A stretch of DNA of 64,000 bases from assembly GCA_029907255.1 (NCBI GenBank), contig JARYMF010000001.1:62001-126000 (forward strand), written 5' to 3'. Of this stretch, positions 56,478-62,695 are shown in pieces (the first letter of the stretch is position 1; every line of letters begins with the position of its first letter). Made by a program: the position numbers and the translations under genes. The DNA comes from Armatimonadota bacterium. Its GTDB lineage: Bacteria > Armatimonadota > UBA5829 > DTJY01. The notes below the pieces were generated by a model. The model saw nothing but the letters and a program-made list of their open reading frames with translations, was not told the origin of the DNA and ran no database searches.

Positions 56478-57767
56478 TCAGTTGTTCTTTATTGCTCTAG
56501 CACCAATGTCTTTTCGGTAGTGCATTCCATCAAAGTAAATCTTTCCTACCGCGGAGTATGCCCTTTCAACCGCATCCTTGAAGGTTTTGCCGAGAGCAGT
56601 TACTCCTAGCACCCGACCGCCGCTGGTAACGACTTTTCCATCCTGAAGTTTTGTCCCTGCATGGAAAATTATCACATTTTCCATCTTCCCAGCAGCCTCT
56701 AGACCGGAGATTGGTTTACCAGTCTCATAGTTGCCAGGATAACCTTCCGATGCGATGACCACACAAACCGCACATCCATTATAGCATTTTAACTCCAGAG
56801 AGTCGAGGGAGCCAGCTAGCGAGGCTTGAATTACTTCTACGAGGTCATTTTCTAGAAGCGGCAGGACTACTTGAGTTTCTGGGTCTCCAAACCGCGCATT
56901 AAATTCCAAAATCTTAGGTCCATTTTTAGTAAGGATTATCCCGGCATAAAGCAAACCCGTGTAAAGCCTGCCCTCCGCCTTCATTGCCTTGATTGTAGGC
57001 CGAATTGCTGTTTCTAATACTTCATCATAGATTTCTGGAGTTACAGCAGGAACAGGAGAATAGCATCCCATGCCGCCAGTGTTCGGCCCCTGGTCATTAT
57101 CGTTAACACGTTTATAATCCTGGGCTGGTGGTAGCGCAATGATTTCCTCACCGTCCGTAATTACCATAAGCGAGGCTTCCTGACCTTCGAGGCGCTCTTC
57201 TATTACGATTTTGTCGCCAGAAGCACCAAATGCCCTTTCATCCATAATAGTTTCTATTGCTTTGATCGCCTGCGTCTTCTTGTCGCATACAAAGACACCT
57301 TTTCCAGCGGCTTCTCCATCTGCTTTTATGACAATTGGAAGTTCTTCTTGTCCTTTGGAAATTTGGTCTATGAATGCTTTAGCTTCTTTGGAGCTGGAGA
57401 AAGTGCGGTATTCTCCAGTTGGAATGCCATACTTGGAAAGAAGATCTTTTGTAAAAACCTTGCTTCCCTCAATGGTTGCGGCAGTTTTGCTTGGGCCGAA
57501 AGTTGGAATTCCTTCCTCACGGAAGACATCAGCTATTCCGGCGATAAGAGGTGATTCAGGTCCAATTATGGCAAGGTCAATTTTCTTTTCTTTAGCAAAA
57601 TCCAGCAAACCTTGAATGTCAGTAGCCTTTATGTTAAAGCATTCTCCTAACATGGCCATGCCCGCATTTCCAGGGGCACAATAAAGTTTTGTAACCAAGG
57701 GGCTTTGGGCTACTTTCCATGCCAGAGCATGTTCTCTGCCTCCTGAGCCAACGATTAGTACTCTCAT
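56478..57767 (-). CDS. purD: Phosphoribosylamine-glycine ligase (GAR synthetase)
   Basis: 429-residue ATP-grasp ligase. The N-terminal GSGGREHALAWK, the ATP loop VIKADGEAAGKGVFVC and the metal site LEFNARFGDPETQ are intact. The ATG shares one base with the dnaB stop (TAATG), so it is translated directly after dnaB. It joins the purine genes to the replication and ribosome genes upstream. Confidence 0.97.
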   Translation of the reverse strand: MRVLIVGSGGREHALAWKVAQSPLVTKLYCAPGNAGMAMLGECFNIKATDIQGLLDFAKEKKIDLAIIGPESPLIAGIADVFREEGIPTFGPSKTAATIEGSKVFTKDLLSKYGIPTGEYRTFSSSKEAKAFIDQISKGQEELPIVIKADGEAAGKGVFVCDKKTQAIKAIETIMDERAFGASGDKIVIEERLEGQEASLMVITDGEEIIALPPAQDYKRVNDNDQGPNTGGMGCYSPVPAVTPEIYDEVLETAIRPTIKAMKAEGRLYTGLLYAGIILTKNGPKILEFNARFGDPETQVVLPLLENDLVEVIQASLAGSLDSLELKCYNGCAVCVVIASEGYPGNYETGKPISGLEAAGKMENVIIFHAGTKLQDGKVVTSGGRVLGVTALGKTFKDAVERAYSAVGKIYFDGMHYRKDIGARAIKNN

Positions 57768-59170
57768 TAGATCTCCGTTCTTTCCTCCTCCAAGTCTTCA
57801 AAGCTTGCGAATTTTGGCAGGAATGCAAGGTGGATAGTACCCGTTGGACCATTTCGCTGTTTCGCAACTATAATTTCTGTTTTATGCACTAGGGTTTCAC
57901 CTGATTGAACCATTGGGTTTTCATCATCCATGTCATCCACCGACTCAATTGCTGGTGTGTGTTTGTAGTAGTCGGGCCGGTAGAGAAAAGCAACTAAATC
58001 GGCTTCTGCTTCAATCGAACCGCTTTCACGCAGGTCTGAGAGAATTGGCCGCTTATCTTGTCTTTGTTCTACCGCACGGCTCAGCTGAGATAGAGCGACT
58101 ACTGGGACGTCTAGCTCTCGTGCTAGACTTTTAAGCATTCTGGCAATCTCTGCAATCTCTTGGTTTCGGTTATCTCCTCGTCTATGCGCCTGCATGAGCT
58201 GGAGGTAGTCAATGATTACAAGTGAAAGTCCATGTTCCGCCTTGAGTCTGCGACATTTGGTGCGCATCTGAAGCGGTGTCATATCAGTGCTGTCGTCTAT
58301 AAAGATTGGTGCGTTATAAAGCATCCCGACTCCCTCGGCGAGCTTCGGCCATTCGTTTGCTTGGATATAGCCAGTTCGCAAGCGATGGGAGTCTACTCTC
58401 GATTGTGAGCAGATTAGTCTGAGGGTGAGCTGTTCTTTTGACATTTCAAGGCTGAATATGGCAACGGGTTTCTTTTCATGGATGGCGACGTGCCTCGCGA
58501 TATCAAGGCAAAAAGCAGTTTTCCCCATTGAGGGCCTACCTGCCACGATGATGAGGTCGCCAGCTTGGAGGCCCGAGGTTATTATATCGAGATCTCGAAA
58601 TCCAGTAGGCAACCCTGATACCAGCGCCTTCTCTTTATATTGGTTTTCAATTCGCTCGAATGCTTGGTGCGCAAGCTCCTTAAGTGGGACAAAGAAGCGT
58701 CCCATTCGCCGCTGAGATACCGTAAAAAGCAATCTTTCTGCGTCATCTACTAATGAGTCTATATCTTCCCCAGATTCGTTAGTCCAGCTGATTATCTGCA
58801 TGCAAGCATCTATTAGGCGGCGCAGGATCGCCTTGTCCTCGACAATTCTGGCATAGTACTCGATGTTTGCCGCTGTCGGCACGCTGTCTATGAGTGCCAT
58901 TAGATATTCTGTACCGCCGACTGCTTCAAGCTTCCCTTTGCTTCGGAGTTCTTCTTGGACCGTAACTATATCTACCGGTTCGTTTTGGATTGCAAGGGAT
59001 ACTAATGCTTCAAAGATGATTTGGTGGGCTTCACGATAAAAGTCTTCTGGTTTGAGTATATCTATGGCTTTTTCAAGAGCCCCGCGGTCAATCATCATTG
59101 AGCCTAGAGTTGACTGCTCAGCCTCAAGATTTTGTGGAGGAGCCTTGCTAAGTAATGAGAGATTATCCAT
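57767..59170 (-). CDS. dnaB: Replicative DNA helicase DnaB
   Basis: 467 residues. The N-terminal helical domain (PPQNLEAEQSTLGSMMIDRGALEKAID) is followed by the RecA-like C-terminal domain with Walker A GRPSMGKTAF near residue 212 and Walker B LVIIDYLQLM. No intein or insertion is present. It follows rplI by 43 bases and overlaps purD by one base. rplI-dnaB order is common in bacteria. Confidence 0.97.
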   Translation of the reverse strand: MDNLSLLSKAPPQNLEAEQSTLGSMMIDRGALEKAIDILKPEDFYREAHQIIFEALVSLAIQNEPVDIVTVQEELRSKGKLEAVGGTEYLMALIDSVPTAANIEYYARIVEDKAILRRLIDACMQIISWTNESGEDIDSLVDDAERLLFTVSQRRMGRFFVPLKELAHQAFERIENQYKEKALVSGLPTGFRDLDIITSGLQAGDLIIVAGRPSMGKTAFCLDIARHVAIHEKKPVAIFSLEMSKEQLTLRLICSQSRVDSHRLRTGYIQANEWPKLAEGVGMLYNAPIFIDDSTDMTPLQMRTKCRRLKAEHGLSLVIIDYLQLMQAHRRGDNRNQEIAEIARMLKSLARELDVPVVALSQLSRAVEQRQDKRPILSDLRESGSIEAEADLVAFLYRPDYYKHTPAIESVDDMDDENPMVQSGETLVHKTEIIVAKQRNGPTGTIHLAFLPKFASFEDLEEERTEI

Positions 59171-59213: not shown

Positions 59214-59669
59214 TTATTGCTGCTGTTCGCCTATGACTTCCACCTTTACATGAGCAACAGCATCCTTGTGGAGGCGTATAGGGACATCGTATGTGCCCAG
59301 AGACTTGATTGGTTCTTCAAGCTCTATTTTGCGTTTATCAATCTTAATTCCAGTTTGTTTCTCAAGTGCGTCGGCGATATCTGCATGCGTAATTGAGCCA
59401 TATAGCTTCGTTCCACTACCAACTTTTCCTGTCACAGTTATCTGGATTTCGCTCAATCGCTCTGCTATGTCTTTTGCTTCCTCGCGAAGCTTCTCGCCTC
59501 TTATTTCCTCGACTTTCTTGCGTTTTTCAAGCTCAGCGAGATGTGCTTTATCAGCAGGGACGGCCAGCTTTCTGGGGAAAAGATAGTTGCGTGCGTAACC
59601 CTCTGCTACGTTGACTATGTCGTTCGCCTTCCCGAGACTCTTTACCTCCCGAGTAAGAATTACTTTCAT
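59214..59669 (-). CDS. rplI: 50S ribosomal protein bL9
   Basis: 151 residues. The N-terminal MKVILTREVKSLGKANDIVNVAEGYARNYLFPRKLA is the bL9 signature. The central helix (AHLAELEKRKKVEEIRGEKLREEAKD) and the C-terminal domain are complete. AGGAGG lies just before the ATG at 59669; the longer frame from 59759 crosses the mlaD end and is unrelated. It lies 14 bases after mlaD. Confidence 0.97.
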   Translation of the reverse strand: MKVILTREVKSLGKANDIVNVAEGYARNYLFPRKLAVPADKAHLAELEKRKKVEEIRGEKLREEAKDIAERLSEIQITVTGKVGSGTKLYGSITHADIADALEKQTGIKIDKRKIELEEPIKSLGTYDVPIRLHKDAVAHVKVEVIGEQQQ

Positions 59670-59683
59670 TTGCTGGTATCCTC

Positions 59684-61000
59684 CTACTTGTTTAATTTCA
59701 CTCCCAAAACTGCTTGGTTTTCGCCAAAAAGGTTGTCTATTCCTAACAAAACTGCCCAATCGCTAGTTACTCTGTAGCCTGCTCGGATGTTTAACTTGGG
59801 TTCATATGGATCAAACAAATCAAGTTTCCCAAAAGCCTTGGATGAAAAAGCATGGTCTAGACCCAAGCCCAGGCGCGACGCATATAATCCATATCTGAGT
59901 CTTGTTTGCGGATTTAACTCCTGTCCTGGCTGAAGGATAAGCTTACTACCTGCACCTGCGTCGTACATGCCAAGCTCTAGGAATTTTTCTTTCCCTGTGG
60001 GTATTGTTGCAGTTAGCTCGGCGCGGAAGTGGTCACCCTTGGGATTATATAGCATATCTAAATTTAAGGCTTGTGTTGAAATCTTGCTTTTTAATCTCGA
60101 CGTGCCGCCAAATATCCTGCCCACCTTGTCGATGACTTGTCTTGCTTCTTCAACTGCTTGGCGGGCTCCAGAAACTGTTTTCCTAATGTCTTCTTGGAAT
60201 TCAGGCGCGGTCACTAGTTTTTCCAGGCTTGCAACGGTGCGATCTAGGCTTTCTACGGTCTCCCTTGCAGTGTGAACGGTTGCTGTTATGTCTCCCTTAA
60301 GTTCGTTACTCTTGGCAAGGTTGTTTAGCTCTGAGGTTATCTCCTTGACGTTTTCTGTTGCATCGCTGATATTTTTTGTTATGGCATCTACGTCGTCTTG
60401 ATTTCTTACAACAGTGTTTTGAAGAGTAGCCATTGTTGCTTCAAGCTTCTGGGCAGACCTGTTAATGCTCGCTACTGTTTCCTTGATGTTTGATTGGAGC
60501 GTTTTGTCGCCGAGCAACGCTTTCAAGCTTTGGGAGGTCTCAGATAGATTGCTTAAAAGAGCCTGGGCGTTGGGAAGCAAATCTTCGATTCTTGGTGGAA
60601 CTTCACCGGTAATTGTGGGGTATGGGGGCGACAGCGTCTGAGCTAAATAGTATTTTGTTTTCCGATTCGGTATGATTTCAATGTACCTTTCGCCTATAAG
60701 CAGGCCAACCCTAATAATGAACTGCGATCTTTTGGGAATGCGATACTTCCGGTTTATGCCAAGGAGCACGTTAGCTTTCGCATCCTTGGTGAGACTCAAG
60801 CTACGCACACTGCCGATGGGAACGCCCGCCATCCGCACTGGGTCGCCTTCCATTATACCAAGGGAATTAGTGAATATAACACTAATGTAGTACATTTCTC
60901 GGTGAAGTTGATAATATTCGAGAAACCAGAAAACTAGGACGAAAGCCAGAGCTGCGAGAAAAACCAAAATTCCTACTTTTAAGGCTGGACTATACGTCAT
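59684..61000 (-). CDS. mlaD: MlaD-like MCE protein with a C-terminal beta-barrel-like domain
   Basis: 438 residues. One membrane segment (about 7-27) is followed by the MCE domain (about 38-115), including GIMEGDPVRMAGVPIGSVRSL and LIGERYIEIIPN. A long helical/coiled region (about 130-305) has heptad-like repeats such as TVASINRSAQKLEATMATLQNTV. The last 130 residues alternate polar and hydrophobic residues in strands (AELTATIP, FLELGMYDAG, TRLRYGLYASRLGLGLDH, NIRAGYRV), as in an outer-membrane barrel. E. coli MlaD ends soon after its MCE domain. Veillonella MlaD, shown to span the envelope, has this same layout. It would ferry phospholipids between membranes. It ends the mla trio. Confidence 0.9.
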   Translation of the reverse strand: MTYSPALKVGILVFLAALAFVLVFWFLEYYQLHREMYYISVIFTNSLGIMEGDPVRMAGVPIGSVRSLSLTKDAKANVLLGINRKYRIPKRSQFIIRVGLLIGERYIEIIPNRKTKYYLAQTLSPPYPTITGEVPPRIEDLLPNAQALLSNLSETSQSLKALLGDKTLQSNIKETVASINRSAQKLEATMATLQNTVVRNQDDVDAITKNISDATENVKEITSELNNLAKSNELKGDITATVHTARETVESLDRTVASLEKLVTAPEFQEDIRKTVSGARQAVEEARQVIDKVGRIFGGTSRLKSKISTQALNLDMLYNPKGDHFRAELTATIPTGKEKFLELGMYDAGAGSKLILQPGQELNPQTRLRYGLYASRLGLGLDHAFSSKAFGKLDLFDPYEPKLNIRAGYRVTSDWAVLLGIDNLFGENQAVLGVKLNK

Positions 61001-61026: not shown

Positions 61027-61782
61027 TTATTCGGTTATGCCAGGTTGAATAGGGCCCTCAGCTTTGCCTTCAATGAATTGCCTTACTCTAGGGTCGTCTG
61101 ATTGTCGAATTTCATCGGCAGTACCATATGCGATGATTGTATGGTCATGAATCATAGCCACACGATTGGATATTCGAAATATGCTGTCAATGTCATGCGA
61201 GACAACCACAGAGGTTACCCCTAGGCGGTTTCGCATTTCAGTAATAAGATTGTTTATGACATTAGCCATTATCGGATCTAAACCGCTTGTCGGTTCGTCA
61301 TAAAAGAGAATTTCTGGGTTCATAGCTATGGCTCGTGCAAGGCTGACTCTTTTTTGCATGCCGCCGCTCAATTGGGCGGGCATTAGGTTTTGAGTCCCTG
61401 GCAAGCCGACAAGTGCCAATTTTTCTTCTACTATATTTTCTATTTCTTTGCGAGTTAAACTAGTATGCCTTATAAGTGCGAATGCGACGTTTTCGAAAAC
61501 GGTCAGCGAGTCGAATAGCGCTCCATATTGAAACACTACGCCTATTTTATGCCGAATACGATTTAGCTCATCTTCAGAAAGTTTTGTGATATCTGTACCG
61601 TTAATGAATACTTGGCCCGATGACGGCCGAATCAATCCTGCCAAAATTTTTAGCAGAGTTGTCTTGCCAGAGCCCGACACCCCCATGATAGAAACCGTGT
61701 CTCCCTGGGGGATATGAAAATTCACATCCCGTAGGATATTTTTGTTCCCTATCTTGTAGTTAACCTGCCGCGCAGTTATCAC
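61027..61782 (-). CDS. mlaF: MlaF-like ABC ATPase of the phospholipid transporter
   Basis: 251 residues. Walker A is GVSGSGKTT near residue 35, the signature LSGGMQKRVSLARAI, and Walker B EILFYDEPTSGLDP, all matching the MlaF subfamily. The GTG at 61782 is the best start; the frame continues without a stop only a short distance upstream. It lies seven bases after mlaE and 26 before mlaD. It powers lipid movement with MlaE and MlaD. No MlaB STAS-domain partner is seen. Confidence 0.94.
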   Translation of the reverse strand: MITARQVNYKIGNKNILRDVNFHIPQGDTVSIMGVSGSGKTTLLKILAGLIRPSSGQVFINGTDITKLSEDELNRIRHKIGVVFQYGALFDSLTVFENVAFALIRHTSLTRKEIENIVEEKLALVGLPGTQNLMPAQLSGGMQKRVSLARAIAMNPEILFYDEPTSGLDPIMANVINNLITEMRNRLGVTSVVVSHDIDSIFRISNRVAMIHDHTIIAYGTADEIRQSDDPRVRQFIEGKAEGPIQPGITE

Positions 61783-61789
61783 GTCCGTA

Positions 61790-62602
61790 TCAGAATCCTG
61801 GTGTTCGGCCGCCGAAAAGGATGGCCGCCAAAAAATAATTCGAAATGTAGATAAGTATCATCGAAATGACAACTGCATTCATAGTGCTGCGGCCAACGCC
61901 GGCTGCTCCACCGGTTGTTGACAATCCTTGTTGGACGCCCACAATGGCAATAAAGGCACCAAAGAAGATGGTTTTAAAGAGTCCCTTAGTAATGTCTTCA
62001 ATGGTAAGCCATGTCCGTGCCGAGTTCAGATATGATGCTGATGAAACGCCATTTGCCATTGCTACAACATAGCCACCGAAGCTTCCAACAATATCACCTA
62101 GCATGGTGAGTACTGGTAGCATGAGCACCAGCGCAAGGAATCTAGGTACAGCCAAGTATTGGATTGGACTTGTTCCTAATGAACGTAGCGCATCTACTTG
62201 TTCGGTAACTTTCATAGTGCCAATTTCGGCGGCGATGGCTGACCCCGCACGGGCGGCAACCACGATTGCAGTTAGAACAGGGGCAAGTTCGCGTACGACT
62301 GAAATTGAAACTCCTCCGCCAACTAGACTCCCAACGCCCCACTGAACCATCAACTGCGAAGTGTATAGTGCGAGAACGGCTCCTGAAAAAGCAGTAGTTA
62401 CTATAACAATAGGAAGTGAATTGAAACCAATTAGAGCCATCTGATTGATTGTATCGCTGATGTTGATATCTCCCGCAATTATGCGGCGAATCGAAGTAAG
62501 GCCGATTATGGTTGCCTCGCCAATAAAGTTGAAGAAGCCGGTGAGCTGTTTCAGCATCACCCATCGTGAAGTTTCTGTGGCTGATTCAAGCCCGTTGGTC
62601 AC
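61790..62602 (-). CDS. mlaE: MlaE-like permease of the phospholipid transporter
   Basis: 270 residues with about five membrane segments. The MlaE-family blocks are present: EATIIGLTSIRR, VGGGVSISVVRELAPVLTAIVVAARAGSAIAAEIGTMKVTEQVDALRSLG, and FIAIVGVQQGLSTTGGAAGVG. The GTG at 62602 is preceded by GAGGAGG six bases upstream; a longer frame to 62695 runs back past the promoter. It is first in the long minus-strand run. The promoter is at 62666-62695. Confidence 0.94.
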   Translation of the reverse strand: MTNGLESATETSRWVMLKQLTGFFNFIGEATIIGLTSIRRIIAGDINISDTINQMALIGFNSLPIVIVTTAFSGAVLALYTSQLMVQWGVGSLVGGGVSISVVRELAPVLTAIVVAARAGSAIAAEIGTMKVTEQVDALRSLGTSPIQYLAVPRFLALVLMLPVLTMLGDIVGSFGGYVVAMANGVSSASYLNSARTWLTIEDITKGLFKTIFFGAFIAIVGVQQGLSTTGGAAGVGRSTMNAVVISMILIYISNYFLAAILFGGRTPGF

Positions 62603-62665
62603 GTTTGCCTCCTCAACAATACGACGGCAATGGGGGTTTGCGAACTTTCTGCGTCGTTTGTTGGT

Positions 62666-62695
62666 ATTATAACCGAACCGAAAGTAGGTTTTCAA
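62666..62695 (-). promoter_or_regulatory. Promoter of the mlaE-purN run
   Basis: TTGAAA (62695-62690), 18-base spacer, TATAAT (62671-62666), read on the minus strand. Transcription would begin near 62659, about 57 bases before the mlaE start. No other comparable promoter is visible down to purF. Confidence 0.65.

Follow-up and report, generated by a model that had tools for sequence, protein, structure and literature searches.

MCE proteins act as hexamers on the MlaEF ATPase/permease. Two MCE proteins of Escherichia coli, PqiB and LetB (YebT), form periplasm-spanning tubes with several stacked MCE rings. The closest described relative of the locus reported here is the MlaEFD system of Veillonella parvula, whose 419-aa MlaD joins a transmembrane (TM) helix, an MCE domain, about 150 helical residues and a ten-stranded barrel in a bacterium without MlaA or MlaC (Grasekamp et al. 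2023, PMC10665443). The V. parvula barrel fractionates with the outer membrane, and mla mutants show outer-membrane defects that are suppressed by tamB and behave as retrograde mutants. That study inferred barrels for about 10% of MlaDs (103 sequences), with a wide spread among diderm Terrabacteria, and placed tolC and tamB immediately after mlaEFD in all Negativicutes (PMC10665443). Armatimonadota are unnamed in the main text of that study, and our literature search returned no relevant paper joining Armatimonadetes/Armatimonadota with MlaD and no experiment in this phylum.

We analysed a 64,000-nt stretch (hereafter, the window) of the assembly (GCA_029907255.1; 3.2 Mb, 99.7% complete) of a bacterium from Armatimonadota, a phylum that has been little studied. 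It probably encodes a phospholipid transporter of the Mla type made up of MlaE, MlaF and MlaD only, in which MlaD appears to be anchored in both membranes as a tube that carries its own barrel anchor. As in V. parvula, MlaD combines an N-terminal TM helix, one MCE domain and a ten-stranded barrel, and is encoded by an mlaEFD operon in a genome without MlaA or MlaC; the armatimonad protein is somewhat longer (438 versus 419 aa), as is its helical segment (about 159 versus about 150 residues). This likeness is one of architecture, set against the published description, and every architectural feature that can be tested matches. V. parvula belongs to another phylum and its system comes with localisation and mutant data, whereas the armatimonad MlaD is known from sequence and models. 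A first-pass annotation of this DNA had already named the Veillonella precedent, and the protein is a further case of the published architecture. What is added to that design is that the barrelled MlaD is nearly universal in Armatimonadota.

The mlaEFD locus and its genomic context

The mlaD frame (59684..61000, on the minus strand like the other genes and segments of the window given below) runs uninterrupted for 438 aa, starting at an ATG that has GGAG eight bases 5' of it, and its product matches PF02470 (E 1.4e-16). The gene for the ABC ATPase, mlaF (61027..61782), lies 26 bp upstream. Its top NCBIfam match is MlaF NF008809, at 257 bits under the equivalog cut-off of 441, and its motifs are intact (Walker A GVSGSGKT, signature LSGGM, Walker B ILFYDEP). 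The permease gene mlaE (61790..62695) is assigned by PF02405 (E 1.1e-71) and by TIGR00056 (232 bits, above the cut-off of 212). Its listed TTG start adds about 46 unlikely residues, and the true start is probably the ATG at 62557 (MLKQLTGFF). Downstream of mlaD, rplI (59214..59669), encoding ribosomal protein bL9, begins with MKVILTREV at 59669, 14 bp past the mlaD stop codon, which its AGGAGG overlaps. It is followed by the replicative helicase gene dnaB (57767..59170), recognised by its reading frame and the conserved gene order. Close spacing on one strand, together with the ribosome-binding site of rplI over the mlaD stop, suggests that mlaE-mlaF-mlaD and rplI-dnaB form a single operon. 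An Rfam search of the window returned zero families.

Neither mlaA nor mlaC occurs at the mlaD locus, as the first-pass annotation had stated. It had also held that a separate MlaA/MlaC pair elsewhere in the genome, acting with this MlaD, would count against its reading; genome-wide searches with PF04333 and PF05494 found neither protein in the 99.7%-complete assembly, while control genomes were positive. MlaB, likewise listed as missing, was not seen adjoining mlaEFD. The whole genome contains one MCE domain and one MlaE. The locus shares with E. coli MlaABCDEF the MlaE permease, an MlaF ATPase with intact motifs and the MCE core fold, but the armatimonad lacks MlaA and MlaC and its MlaD is over twice as long, with the helical segment and barrel added. 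Against TIGR04430, the equivalog model of the short MlaD, the protein scores 65.5 bits, under the cut-off of 135. Assignment to the proteobacterial six-part MlaABCDEF system was rejected on the absence of MlaA and MlaC, the length of MlaD and this score.

BamA, LpxC and two TamB-like frames (1510 and 1558 aa) are encoded in the genome, and the cell should therefore be diderm with LPS. TamB-like, BamA and LpxC genes lie within 8 kb in an outer-membrane biogenesis cluster (G000:C2:209603-216802), on a separate contig from mlaEFD, and the second TamB-like frame is on contig C5 at 246797-248404. The operon thus differs from that of Negativicutes, in which tolC and tamB follow mlaEFD directly: here rplI-dnaB-purD takes that place, and the TamB-like frames are on C2 and C5.

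Inner-membrane helix, MCE domain and helical segment

Residues 4-33 of MlaD (60902..60991) are predicted to form the N-terminal inner-membrane helix (AF2 helix H4-33), and residues 1-32 are the sole segment of the protein with KD19 above 1.6 (maximum 2.93 at residues 9-27). The MCE domain follows at residues 37-111 (60668..60892; PF02470). Its strands span residues 36-131 in the AF2 model, and Foldseek superposes it on the E. coli MlaD core 5uw8 (TMt 0.84, rmsd 1.9). The membrane anchor and the single MCE domain read from the bare sequence in the first-pass annotation are thereby confirmed.

Residues 138-296 (60113..60589) make up a predicted helical periplasmic segment, with AF2 helices at 138-159, 166-196, 201-230, 236-263 and 266-296. 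These were modelled at low confidence (block means about 33-54) in a full-length model built on a 23-sequence alignment; the models drew on sequences from the window and from related loci, with the closest relatives (L003-L005) left out. Across family-wide windows, the hydropathy of the segment peaks at 103 degrees per residue (power 3.28 versus 1.02 after shuffling), the heptad value, which is compatible with amphipathic helices that pack against each other. Fourier analysis of the single sequence over the whole MlaD region gave no informative helix or strand signal. Simple arithmetic (159 residues at 1.5 A each) yields about 24 nm, assuming a straight, continuous helix; given the low model confidence of the segment, both the straightness of the helices and the closure of a tube stay tentative. 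A linker without regular structure, at residues 297-310 (60071..60112), joins the helices to the barrel, with low pLDDT up to residue 306. The predicted 159 helical and 127 beta residues come close to the earlier estimates of about 175 and about 130.

The distance between MCE domain and barrel was measured in 28 aligned sequences from P111, where the MCE domain ends, to G344, a fixed glycine of the barrel. The values lie between 227 and 282 residues and depend largely on the family, with 232-234 for most members of the organism's own family and 272-278 in another family (f3). The two ends are near-constant, with the MCE domain ending at residues 108-114 and a barrel end of 94-98 residues with one outlier of 107. 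Helix lengths that differ largely by family, between a constant MCE domain and a constant barrel, make it possible to test directly whether the helix gauges the width of the periplasm.

The best full-length Foldseek matches are chains of mycobacterial Mce1, with 8fed_B aligned over 358 columns (E 2.3e-10). The match is best over the TM helix, MCE domain and helices, and reflects a shared plan in which a single MCE ring is combined with an extended needle of helices. Mce1 differs in being a heterohexamer encoded by six genes, against the single MCE gene of the armatimonad genome, and in having chains with no full barrel at their ends (PMC10665443). The highest NCBIfam score of MlaD also falls to the mycobacterial Mce model TIGR00996, at 90.7 bits under the cut-off of 140.5. 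Membership of the mycobacterial Mce family was rejected, the score being under the cut-off and the MCE genes one rather than six. These resemblances, in both fold and NCBIfam score, are what would favour a system that moves lipid outward (anterograde) or carries a non-phospholipid cargo, as in mycobacterial Mce1/Mce4. Yet the best matches of MlaE and MlaF are to Mla-type families, the genome carries a single MCE gene, not the set of six that builds a heterohexamer, and the tamB-suppressed V. parvula mla mutants are retrograde-like (PMC10665443). We therefore regard outward transport or another cargo as rather unlikely, and retain inward phospholipid transport as the probable function. PqiB and LetB offer a further comparison as periplasm-spanning MCE tubes, from which the armatimonad MlaD differs in having one MCE domain and a predicted outer-membrane barrel of its own.

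The predicted C-terminal ten-stranded barrel

The C-terminal domain, residues 311-437 (59690..60070), is a ten-stranded beta-barrel in the AF2 full-length model, with block means of 85-97. Folded alone, it gives the same ten strands at a pLDDT of 95.0 and a pTM of 0.85. The first-pass annotation had proposed a barrel in residues 300-438 and made it a test of its reading, and the high-confidence model places one there. A Pfam search, which it had also suggested, found no family that fits the domain; the weak matches (best 0.016) occur in one or two members each. All ten strands alternate in hydropathy (10/10), with a summed face difference of 35.5, whereas shuffling columns within strands gives 14.1 +/- 3.1 and none of 20,000 shuffles reaches the observed value. 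Because all ten strands alternate and the domain is conserved throughout the phylum, the barrel pattern is not a product of chance.

VIA-align ranks omptins first (Z 14.9 for Pla, then 14.7; rmsd 2.4-2.6 over 124-129 residues), followed by OpcA (Z 13.4) and the designed ten-stranded membrane barrel TMB10 (Z 12.1), and the best five matches are all outer-membrane barrels. Omptins and OpcA together align over 124-130 of 134 residues. Omptins (Pla, OmpT) and OpcA share the ten-stranded outer-membrane barrel fold with MlaD, but identity is only 11-14% and 9%, respectively, and the armatimonad loops, at 2-6 residues, are much shorter; the resemblance is one of fold, and no protease activity is claimed. 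Soluble ten-stranded barrels of the nitrobindin kind also align, mostly at Z about 10 and in two cases at 12.3, so the fold alone does not decide whether the barrel is inserted in a membrane.

The distribution of conserved residues over the two faces bears on this point. Thirteen strand positions stand out as the most conserved (entropy below 1 bit); 12 of them belong to the polar face and are of the types G, R, D, Q and Y. They include Q357, R369, G371, G380, D382 and G433, of which Q357, R369 and G371 are invariant and D382 is near-invariant on the predicted inward side. Hydrophobic-face residues vary among L, F, V, I, A and Y, although the overall entropy difference between the faces is borderline (Mann-Whitney p 0.056). 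A variable hydrophobic face and a conserved polar one is the sequence pattern of a lipid-facing exterior around a packed polar lumen.

A C-terminal domain that stays soluble in the periplasm, and there binds lipid or an outer-membrane partner instead of inserting, would account for the alignment of nitrobindin, Rv2717c and BFA1 at Z about 10-12 and for a terminal MlaD residue that is basic rather than aromatic. The best five structural matches are nevertheless outer-membrane barrels, even with two soluble ones reaching Z 12.3. The conserved polar and variable hydrophobic faces (12/13 sites; p 0.056) are also the reverse of what a barrel with a hydrophobic core would show, and the V. parvula barrel fractionated with the outer membrane (PMC10665443). 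On balance we judge a soluble domain very improbable and favour an inserted barrel.

An inserted barrel could hold the tube in place or pass lipid through it. In the second case, the C-terminal barrels would serve as a lipid port, through the lumen of each or through a fused multi-chain barrel, and MlaD would be both tube and channel. LptD provides a precedent for a translocation barrel in the outer membrane, and a TolC-like fusion of barrels has been floated for V. parvula (PMC10665443). Each armatimonad chain, however, closes a ten-stranded barrel by itself at high confidence, with an inward face rich in Arg, Asp, Gln and Gly that suggests a filled polar lumen, and the monomer barrel of V. 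parvula was judged too narrow for a phospholipid (PMC10665443). Since conserved charged residues appear to line the lumen and the V. parvula barrel is deemed too narrow, a port seems improbable, and we favour an anchor over a lipid pore.

With the barrel as an anchor, the proposed transporter would work as follows. MlaE and MlaF would form the inner-membrane ABC transporter, on which six MlaD chains would be seated, each held by its N-terminal helix. The six MCE domains would make a ring, and a hydrophobic tube built of the long helices would cross the periplasm. Every MlaD would end in a small ten-stranded barrel in the outer membrane, fixing the far end of the tube. Lipid would travel inside that tube, most likely inward from the outer membrane, the direction suggested for V. 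parvula, and TamB-like proteins would oppose this retrograde flow. Hexamer, closed tube, spanning of the periplasm, cargo and direction are read by analogy with described systems, and both outer-membrane reach and lipid transport are what the fold and the V. parvula precedent would predict. The one-protein bridge of the first-pass annotation is upheld in its architecture but has to be qualified: MCE proteins work as hexamers on MlaEF, and the barrel probably serves as an anchor and not as part of the lipid path.

The classical outer-membrane signal is an aromatic last residue. Among 50 MlaD relatives, the last barrel strand (C-terminal region, 59684-59720 in the window) carries an invariant Gly followed, usually, by Tyr, Leu, Trp or Phe three residues on; five residues past that Gly, 35 of the 50 have Arg or Lys rather than the classical aromatic. 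The BamA encoded in this genome has Phe as its last residue. An aromatic end is retained in the MlaD of an Aminicenantes genome (L059) and of one armatimonad (L053).

Spread across Armatimonadota and beyond

The barrel profile matches 239 of the 251 Armatimonadota genomes, including 176 of the 179 of good quality; the corresponding counts for the MCE domain are 238 and 178. This contrasts with the share of about 10% that the V. parvula study gave for barrels among MlaDs as a whole (PMC10665443). MlaA was found in none of 121 Armatimonadota genomes, nor was MlaC above its curated cut-off, the one trace being a sub-threshold fragment in G032; controls were positive for both. Nearly every good genome of the phylum thus carries a barrelled MlaD, nearly always as its sole MCE protein. 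The phylum-wide presence of a barrelled MlaD, with MlaA and above-cut-off MlaC absent from the 121 genomes sampled, argues strongly that a three-protein Mla system linking the two membranes is old and stable, and not an oddity. A more speculative extension, which we offer tentatively, is that across Armatimonadota the barrelled MlaD might be the sole Mla route, a near-universal single-copy tether and tube whose helix length is a clade-specific ruler fixed by the width of the periplasm and whose barrels enter the outer membrane through a C-terminal signal with a basic last residue.

A few genomes depart from this pattern. G062 (G062:C51:25694-25963) and G151 have an MCE protein without a barrel match, and G205, 97% complete, has neither. 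In G068 the MCE domain lies in a 170-aa frame (G068:C2:618436-618666) and the genome has two barrel matches; its mlaD is possibly split.

The gene order mlaE-mlaF-mlaD-rplI-dnaB-purD recurs in Armatimonadota loci. In Coatesbacteria (L057) and Aminicenantes (L059), too, the two gene sets are neighbours, with rplI-dnaB immediately preceding mlaEFD, which hints that the linkage is old. Where genomes are named, MlaD relatives come from Armatimonadetes/Armatimonadota and Chthonomonadia MAGs, and the closest genomes with relatives belong to the same genus and family as the window's assembly. Scanning genome contigs with the single MlaD protein retrieved zero relatives, and a 28-row alignment was too divergent for the purpose; a 7-row alignment succeeded. 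Outside the phylum, a few MlaDs carry homologous barrels; the barrel profile matches an Alphaproteobacteria MAG (L082, E 8e-11), L060 (9e-9), L070 (3e-7) and the Aminicenantes locus L059 (1e-6). The MlaD profile also matches residues 6-288 of a 312-aa 'Mce/MlaD domain-containing protein' of solved structure, PDB 13hr chain I (E 3.2e-22).
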